This document shows positions 52,901-54,917 of a DNA stretch of 64,000 nucleotides, one piece after another. The DNA comes from Lutjanus erythropterus (taxonomy: Eukaryota; Chordata; Actinopteri; Lutjaniformes; Lutjanidae), in contig CM034608.1 of assembly GCA_020091685.1 (NCBI GenBank), forward strand, positions 3,343,590-3,407,589. Reading direction: 5' to 3'. A program made the translations under genes and the position numbers. The notes under the pieces were generated by a model, which was given only the letters and a program-made list of their open reading frames with translations, was not told the DNA's origin and ran no database searches. Within the stretch, counting starts at the first letter, position 1; each line of letters begins with the position of its first letter.

Positions 52901-54917
52901 TTGGCCCCGTAAAAAGTTGGTGCCCGGGCCCTGATTATACCCCAAACCATCTACGCAAACCTCAGCATGAGACCTTCTTGGATCTCATGATACATGTTAC
53001 AAATAGTGGGACTTTTAAAATATGATGATGGACCTTCTCATTAATTCATGGAACTTTTAAACCAGGTGAAGAGACGTGTACAAACAAACAAAGGGACATC
53101 TTAAAATAAAATGTTAATGGGGTCGACTTTTTTAGACTTTTTAATTCAATGATGGGCCTATTTCTACTACATAATTACACTTTTTTAAACTTGAGGGTTC
53201 GGCTTTTTAAACTAAAGAGTGGGATCCCACTTTAATTGGCATTTTTGTAACCTTACAAATGTTTGGAGTTGAATGTGAAGAGTTGCTTCTCAAGTGAAGA
53301 GTTCAAGTATCTCAGGGTCTTGTTCACGAGTGACAATAAAATGGAGTGTGTGACTGACGGGCAGATTGGTGCAGTGTCAGCAGTAACACGGGCATTGTAC
53401 TGGGTCATTGTGCTGAAGAGGGAGCTGAACCGGAAAGCAAAGCTTTCGATTTACTACTCAATCTACGTTATAATCCTCACCGACAGTCACGAGCTCTGGG
53501 TAGTGACAAAAGATTGAAATTGCTGATAAGCAAGCAGCTGAAATGAGTCTGGAAATGAGACAGGAGGAGAGTGACGGTATCAAGCTCAGACATGTGAAGG
53601 AGACTCGGAGTAGAGCCCCTGCTCTATCTGAAAGGGGCTGGCTGAGGTGGTTCCACCTCTGATCAGGATCCACCTGAGCATGTTCCTGTGGAGGTTTTCA
53701 AGGTACATCCAACAGCTGGTACAGGACATCCCAGGGTTGACCCAGAAAAAAGTGGTGAGATTATTACGTCTCATCTGACTTGGGAACAGAGACGGATTTT
53801 GCTCAAGATTTCTGCTGAATACCAGGAAGTTTTTCCCTCATCATTGTTGCTTTGTGGTTGCTCATGGTGGGACATGTTGGGTTACTATTTTTGATTGTTT
53901 TTTCCATAAAATTATTAGGTGTTAAAACAGTTTTGTAAATATTACACACATAAATGAGTTTCTTCTCACCAACTGGCGGAGCTGTTCGTTCTCTTCTGTC
54001 ATGCTGGTTGTCTTCTGGACTTCAGCATCAAAACTCAACAGGACTGGCTGAGGTGAAAACCAGTTAAGGACTAGAAACCATCAAAACCAGAGTTTAAATA
54101 GCACAGACTCAGTGGATCAGTTTCAGACAGGTTACAATGTAGACTAGACATTAAACTATGAACTTCAGCTGAAGGATATGCATACACTGGAACAGGACAG
54201 ATAAGAAGTTGTGCAGTGAAACCAGGAAGGTGTCGGCCCACTGGCGGGAGAAGTATGGTGAGAAGGCGGGGTTCTGGTCAGGGGTGGGGATAAACGGCAG
54301 GATGAACCAATCACGCCACTCGGCCTGACCCTGCAGCTCCAACGCCTGCTTTTGGAAAAACTCCTGCGTCTTGTCCAGGTTTCCTTTCTGTAAGGGTGAG
54401 AAAAAAGAGACGGTTTCTTCCTACTGTGTTTCAGAAACATACAGTCTGCTGTGTTTGATTCTTCCGCGGGATGTTACCTGGATGGTGTTGATGACGTAGT
54501 ATCTGTACAGGCTGGTTCTCAGTTTGTTGACCGTGGATCTGTAGACATCCTCCAGTCTGCAGAAGAGACGTCTGTCCAGGTAAAGCCAGTACTCCTTCAG
54601 ACCAAACAGGTCAAAGTTCTGGACAAACTGCTGCAGCTGATCGATGATCTTATCCACCTGCAGACAGAAGATGTTTGAGATTAAAAACAAACTTAAATAA
54701 TAATAATAATAATGACGATGTATAGAGATCTGTCTCTAAAACATTCCTCTCATAGGTTAGGAAAAAGTCCCTCAGACGATCTATCTATTCATACCCTGAA
54801 GCCTTTCTCCTTGTCAGCTTTGATCTCGCTGTCCAGGTGTTTCAGAGTGCTGGTGAAGCCACGATAGATCAGATACTCTCTCACATGTTCGTCTGTCCTC
54901 TCCACTGCCGACCCCAT
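37983..54917 (-). CDS. wdr91: WD repeat-containing protein 91, complete, 17 coding exons
   Basis: Endosomal Rab7 effector that restrains PI3-kinase and promotes early-to-late endosome conversion. Exons (minus): 54917-54795, 54657-54478, 54387-54180, 54052-53970, 51753-51644, 46022-45851, 44860-44651, 43251-43052, 42918-42864, 42729-42634, 41262-41168, 40769-40616, 40501-40393, 39537-39425, 39275-39168, 38964-38875, 38147-37983. The product is 756 aa (human 747). Residues 1-200 form the conserved N-terminal region ([25 protein letters not shown]) ending in a short coiled coil. Residues 235-400 are Ser/Gln-rich linker ([11 protein letters not shown] conserved). From about 405 the WD40 propeller begins ([13 protein letters not shown]) and ends ASMDGKIKL. 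Intron 3 is a U12 AT-AC intron; the others are GT-AG. All phases close, and the identity is very secure. Confidence 0.97.
38290..38510. repeat. AT-rich GTTATAAC-type repeat
   Basis: In wdr91 intron 16. Shares 'gttataac', 'aagataaatagtat' and 'aagttttc' words with 1500-2060. Confidence 0.45.
41585..42240. mobile_element. Probable MITE with 'aagtcccaagtcaagag' sequence
   Basis: In wdr91 intron 10. 'gtaagtcattgctttgcaagtcgcaagtaagtctcaagtc' at one end and 'tcaagtccaagtgaagtcatgagtcc' at the other form inverted-repeat-like ends known from many teleost genomes. Confidence 0.5.
43840..44530 (+). pseudogene. L2-like LINE reverse transcriptase relic
   Basis: In wdr91 intron 7, plus strand. Near 43862 the frame reads [10 protein letters not shown] (RT domain 4). 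At 43967-43978 the catalytic YADD box reads YANN. Further on come [21 protein letters not shown], and [12 protein letters not shown] in shifted frames. Stops and frameshifts make it non-functional. Confidence 0.8.
47335..47560. mobile_element. Repeat fragment with 'aaaggaccagtgtgtagggttt' end
   Basis: In wdr91 intron 5. The opening words and 'ggcatctagtggtgaggtt' are those of a common teleost repeat. The far boundary is uncertain. Confidence 0.5.
48690..49590 (+). pseudogene. Second L2-like LINE relic, fragmentary
   Basis: In wdr91 intron 5. The frame at about 48720-48752 reads [10 protein letters not shown], retaining the RT catalytic box. A separated C-terminal-type segment at about 49365-49435 encodes [17 protein letters not shown] sequence. 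Heavily broken. Confidence 0.6.
49650..50470. other. wdr91 intron 5, unrecognised sequence
   Basis: No confident repeat or coding content. The short minus-strand ORF at 49904-50134 has no recognisable features. Confidence 0.35.
50483..50488 (-). terminator. Candidate intronic poly(A) signal in wdr91
   Basis: AATAAA on the minus strand, about 1.16 kb beyond the donor of coding exon 5. It follows sequence that looks free of repeats. Speculative. Confidence 0.25.
51988..52165 (+). mobile_element. hAT-like MITE of the 'gggctgcaactaatgatta' family, truncated
   Basis: In wdr91 intron 4. Starts GGGGCTGCAACTAATGATTA and continues 'gattattttctcgattaatcgattag' and 'gaaaaatgttgatcagtgtttcccaaagc'. The right end is not found. 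Confidence 0.75.
52330..52668. mobile_element. MITE fragment related to 8131-8640
   Basis: Shares 'cttggattac', a poly(T) block, 'acattttaaaactggtcaccattc', 'gaagctccaggagtgttttgtgaactgg' and the end 'gtttgggtgaactatcactttaa'. Confidence 0.6.
53255..53790 (+). pseudogene. 3' fragment of an RTE/Rex-like LINE
   Basis: In wdr91 intron 4. The frame encodes [19 protein letters not shown], then [17 protein letters not shown] and HELWVVTKD, a C-terminal pattern typical of teleost LINEs. Shifted frames continue (GRPR-like region at about 53690-53780). The family label is from memory and was not checked. Confidence 0.65.
54053..54179 (-). other. U12-type (minor spliceosome) AT-AC intron in wdr91
   Basis: On the minus strand the 5' site is ATATCCTT (54179-54172) and the branch site TCCTTAAC (54070-54063). 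The intron ends TTTTCAC (AC at 54054-54053), with the branch A about 11 bases from the acceptor. Splicing here gives [12 protein letters not shown] across the junction, matching human WDR91 FQCMPVPVILNF. Confidence 0.93.

Follow-up and report, generated by a model that had tools for sequence, protein, structure and literature searches.

We describe in wdr91 of the snapper Lutjanus erythropterus an intron that is almost certainly a genuine U12-type intron, of the minor-spliceosome class with AT-AC ends. It lies on the minus strand of a 64,000-nucleotide stretch of contig CM034608.1 (the window), at positions 54179-54053, is 127 nucleotides (nt) long and reads ATATCCTT...TCCTTAACTGGTTTTCAC. The 5' splice site, the branch site and the AC acceptor are all present where the initial annotation had placed them, and the length is the one it gave (Table 1). 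The two candidate branch adenosines, 54065 and 54064, stand 12 and 11 nt ahead of the last intron base, respectively. Joining 54180 to 54052 yields an open frame with a translatable junction; when the intron is retained, a stop codon appears shortly inside it. The exons ahead of the junction measure 123, 180 and 208 nt, which places the junction after nucleotide 511 of the coding sequence (CDS), in phase 1. We infer that splicing takes place at 54180/54052 in vivo in this species.

The strongest evidence for an AT-AC intron, and an independent one, is that human WDR91 shares the c.511 coordinate. A homozygous human variant, NM_014149.4:c.511+1A>G, is reported in PMC10767581 and cited in PMC11925005. 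Its notation means that the human intron following nucleotide 511 begins with an A, so that the intron start is an A at the same coding coordinate as in the snapper. A shared c.511 coordinate combined with an unusual first base, coming from a source that has no connection with our window, is hard to account for unless human has an orthologous intron beginning with AT. The two introns agree in gene, coding coordinate, phase 1 and first base, the comparison covering that first base in one species. By coding coordinate, the snapper intron is orthologous in position and first base to the human one. The initial annotation had named the homologous position in other vertebrates as a place to look for the same intron class, and to this extent, one species and one base, human WDR91 agrees. 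The register with human WDR91 across the junction, also put forward there, is supported here through the common c.511 coordinate, the N-terminal part having no relative among solved chains. It had also warned that public models of the gene may be wrong here; this does not hold for human, where the RefSeq NM_014149.4 numbering already has an A at +1 after c.511. The class is well known, and the orthologous human position is annotated.

Likeness to vertebrate U12-type introns

The published signature of U12-type AT-AC introns consists of ATATCCTT, TCCTTAAC and a terminal AC (PMC2831892). The wdr91 intron matches it letter for letter, in agreement with the class initially proposed. It has the same 5' site, branch site and acceptor as vertebrate introns of this class, together with a branch distance of 11-12 nt and phase 1, and no sequence difference from them was found, the class being assigned from sequence. 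The branch-to-acceptor distance compares with a reported optimum of 11-13 nt, and mixed AT-AG or GT-AC ends appear to be disfavored (PMC3584512). U12 introns are biased against phase 0 (PMC7367187), with which the phase 1 of the wdr91 intron agrees. They are also well conserved: when human is compared with other vertebrates, at least 90% of the comparisons show them retained (PMC2831892). The rarity of AT-AC introns, stressed in the initial annotation, needs qualification: they are rare among all introns, yet they form a standard U12 subtype, since AT-AC ends account for 22% of U12 introns in zebrafish, 12% in fugu and 26% in human (PMC7367187).

The mechanism established for this class can be applied to these signals. 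The U11 small nuclear RNA (snRNA) would pair with ATATCCTT, and U12 snRNA would pair with TCCTTAAC, with one of two adenosines left free to act as the nucleophile at the branch. The catalytic core would then be completed by U4atac/U6atac and U5. Joining at the AC located 11-12 nt beyond the branch would connect 54180 with 54052, so that codon 171 (C|CT, Pro) is restored.

In the literature searched, which did not extend to catalogues and supplements, WDR91 is not tied to minor splicing. The sole article matching both WDR91 and 'U12' has WDR91 as a mere row in a gene table and no 'U12' in its main text. Neither WDR91 nor HSPC049 occurs in the main text of PMC2831892 (U12 catalogues lying outside the search), and wdr91 does not occur in that of PMC9501576, on zebrafish. 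Likewise, the main texts of PMC10767581 and PMC11925005 contain no mention of U12, minor spliceosome or minor intron.

Chance expectation and competing splice choices

Taken singly, the two motifs occur at chance level in the window (five instances of RTATCCTT against 3.8 expected, and two of TCCTTAAC against 2.3), and these counts were not taken as evidence alone. The exact combination of 5' site and branch site with proper acceptor spacing, within 500 nt, is found once in the window, for a mean of 0.04 in shuffled sequences. By itself this motif pair is only modest evidence. What carries the weight is where the pair lies: precisely between coding exons 3 and 4, in frame, in a gene that requires an intron at this point.

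Several observations weigh against the assignment. An exact motif pair within 500 nt was reached in 4 of 100 shuffles, and in 36 of 100 when distances up to 5000 nt were allowed. Between exons 3 and 4, as many as 124 splice pairs, drawn from five end types, leave the frame open; of these, 94 are also in the right frame downstream, including 14 AT-AC pairs, so that frame alone is weak and not decisive. Intron 9 of the same gene model, a GT-AG intron, also contains a branch-like sequence, one mismatch away from the motif. The pyrimidine fraction at -20 to -4 of the AT-AC intron, an interval that overlaps the branch site, is 0.65, the model's other introns ranging from 0.41 to 0.94; pyrimidine content before the AC acceptor is not clearly below that of the model's GT-AG introns. 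Finally, the human match is limited to the first intron base and includes neither the other letters of that intron nor its 3' end.

We considered whether the major spliceosome may remove the intron through the GT at 54185 and an AG at 54044 or 54071, the U12-like motifs being then a coincidence or what is left of an intron that has been converted. Neither pair breaks the frame. For 54185..54044, the initial annotation correctly stated that phase is kept and that the product is five residues shorter (229 versus 234 amino acids, aa, of the tested stretch); the figure of five is however a net one, six residues being lost and one gained. It left unmentioned 54185..54071, an in-frame GT-AG pair that adds four residues (238 aa), and the same GT is also in frame with an AG at 54020. 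The context of the GT at 54185 agrees with 5 of 9 U2 positions, the same score as that of intron 5, the weakest that the model accepts, and U12-to-U2 conversion via nearby cryptic sites has been described (PMC3584512). Yet the 23 right-frame GT-AG pairs as a set have only 2-5 of 9 matches to the U2 5' site, whereas the 15 GT-AG introns accepted in the model have 5-8. An AG at 54048, 4 nt before 54044, would break the frame with the GT at 54185 (this pair is not in the open-frame list), and with the AG at 54071 the U12 branch site would become part of the coding sequence. Perfect and well-spaced U12 motifs would be unlikely to persist unused, fewer AT-AC introns than expected are seen in U12-to-U2 conversions (PMC2831892), and the human intron starts with A at the corresponding position. 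A weak point in the same direction comes from the CTLH profile, whose last position is reached by the AT-AC joining (96.5 bits), whereas the GT-AG joining stops one position short (94.5 bits). We thus consider removal by the major spliceosome through these sites very improbable.

A milder version would retain the AT-AC junction as the main product and add a minor or cryptic in-frame GT-AG isoform when minor splicing is weak. In-frame U2-type sites do flank the U12 sites of wdr91, with GT-AG pairs overlapping the AT-AC intron, and it has been described as typical that cryptic U2 sites become active in the vicinity of compromised U12 introns (PMC8329584). However, the flanking U2 sites are poor in wdr91, and a 2012 review (PMC3584512) considered U12 introns to show almost no alternative splicing; such an isoform appears unlikely. 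Were minor splicing to fail, the GT-AG pairs starting at 54185 would offer a ready cryptic route, with a net loss of five residues or a gain of four. As for the AT-AC ends themselves, U2-type AT-AC introns removed by the major spliceosome exist, as in some sodium channel genes, but these are expected to carry a G at +5 (PMC2831892). The wdr91 5' splice site has a C at +5, and both U12 motifs, at the 5' site and at the branch, are complete, which leaves this last explanation with hardly any credibility. The U12-type AT-AC intron remains our preferred interpretation.

Similar motifs are scattered elsewhere in the window. Exact RTATCCTT sequences also occur at 509-516 on the plus strand and at 24672-24679 and 30141-30148 on the minus strand, in each case lacking an exact branch site with acceptor within 500 nt. 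At 35179-34804 on the minus strand, GTATCCTT is accompanied by TCCTGGAC, which resembles a branch site (one mismatch to TCCTTRAC), and by an AG at 376 nt; we do not claim this as a U12 intron, a relaxed scan being expected to produce 1.23 such pairs by chance. More generally, a scan allowing one mismatch per site returned 16 matches in the window, versus a shuffle mean of 27, and no further U12 intron is claimed.

The wdr91 model and its surroundings

Judged by its domains, the host gene is wdr91, as the initial annotation had it, with a CTLH-like region at the N terminus and WD repeats at the C terminus. The WD part matches Protein Data Bank (PDB) chains named WD repeat-containing protein 91 (8kb8, 6vyc and 8shj; expectation values, E, from 9.4e-187 to 3.4e-188), and the N-terminal part matches the Pfam family CTLH_Armc9 (PF23138, E 2.2e-27). 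The N-terminal 234 aa have no significant relative in PDB (two matches up to E 10, the best a kinase at E 1.4). Our model comprises 17 coding exons totaling 2271 nt and encodes 756 aa, with a terminal stop only. Exon joins were picked by hand, in part guided by the human protein, so that the individual joins are not independently tested by the open frame.

The AT-AC intron stands apart within this model. Fifteen of the 16 introns are GT-AG and show 3-6 mismatches to the U12 5' site; 54179-54053 is the only AT-AC intron, with no mismatch at either U12 site. Its length, presented initially as only 127 nt, is correct and ordinary for this gene, in which 7 of 16 introns are at most 149 nt long. 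The likely exon join is fixed in this way at a place that is out of reach for a gene finder restricted to GT-AG introns.

Table 1. Location of the predicted AT-AC intron, its signals and the surrounding wdr91 features in the window
Feature	Position	Strand	Remarks
Predicted U12-type AT-AC intron (coding-model intron 3)	54053..54179	-	127 nt, phase 1, after CDS nucleotide 511; open frame
5' splice site ATATCCTT	54172..54179	-	0 mismatches to RTATCCTT
Predicted branch site TCCTTAAC	54063..54070	-	0 mismatches; candidate branch A 54065 or 54064
AC acceptor	54053..54054	-	
Upstream coding exon 3 of wdr91	54180..54387	-	End of CTLH_Armc9 domain
Downstream coding exon 4 of wdr91	53970..54052	-	
Competing in-frame GT-AG pair, candidate cryptic U2-type sites	54044..54185	-	Judged not to give the main product
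wdr91 coding region, ATG to stop	37983..54917	-	17 coding exons, hand-joined
wdr91 coding exons 1-6	54917-54795, 54657-54478, 54387-54180, 54052-53970, 51753-51644, 46022-45851	-	
wdr91 coding exons 7-12	44860-44651, 43251-43052, 42918-42864, 42729-42634, 41262-41168, 40769-40616	-	
wdr91 coding exons 13-17	40501-40393, 39537-39425, 39275-39168, 38964-38875, 38147-37983	-	

On either side of wdr91, other coding sequences are suggested. Upstream, at 58527-59510 on the minus strand, a 327-aa open frame (stop to stop) contains a rhodopsin-family receptor domain (Pfam 7tm_1, E 1.4e-44) and looks like a single-exon gene for a G protein-coupled receptor. Downstream, at 34202-34948 on the same strand, a serine- and acid-rich open frame enters a CA/TG repeat and has no match in Pfam at E up to 0.001; it is perhaps an exon of another gene. 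At gathering scores Rfam gave no match anywhere in the window, and a search of 53000-55000 at E up to 0.01 likewise gave none; there are no transfer RNA genes in the window.

Reading of the human c.511+1A>G variant

The patient homozygous for c.511+1A>G presented with microcephaly and severe microlissencephaly, and the variant is reported as a candidate of unknown significance; the Italian study reporting it (PMC10767581) places WDR91 among candidate genes of this kind. The human intron affected is very probably a minor-spliceosome intron. An informative parallel is STK11/LKB1, a different gene, in which a U12 AT-AC intron is likewise altered from A to G at its first base in Peutz-Jeghers syndrome. 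The LKB1 mutation formally does no more than switch the intron from one U12 subtype to the other, yet it leads to cryptic splicing by both spliceosomes (PMC8329584). By analogy, we infer that c.511+1A>G, which converts AT to GT at a presumed U12 5' site, should act as the LKB1 mutation does. The variant would then be read as a subtype switch from AT to GT and not as the loss of a GT, which would also alter the choice of assay. This testable reading of a clinical variant is the main value of the finding.

A broader hypothesis may be put forward tentatively, at somewhat less than even chances. WDR91 would be a conserved target of the minor spliceosome in vertebrates, human included; c.511+1A>G would create a mismatched GT-AC intron and cause retention or cryptic splicing in the manner of LKB1; and loss of WDR91 could be one route leading from minor-spliceosome disorders to microcephaly.
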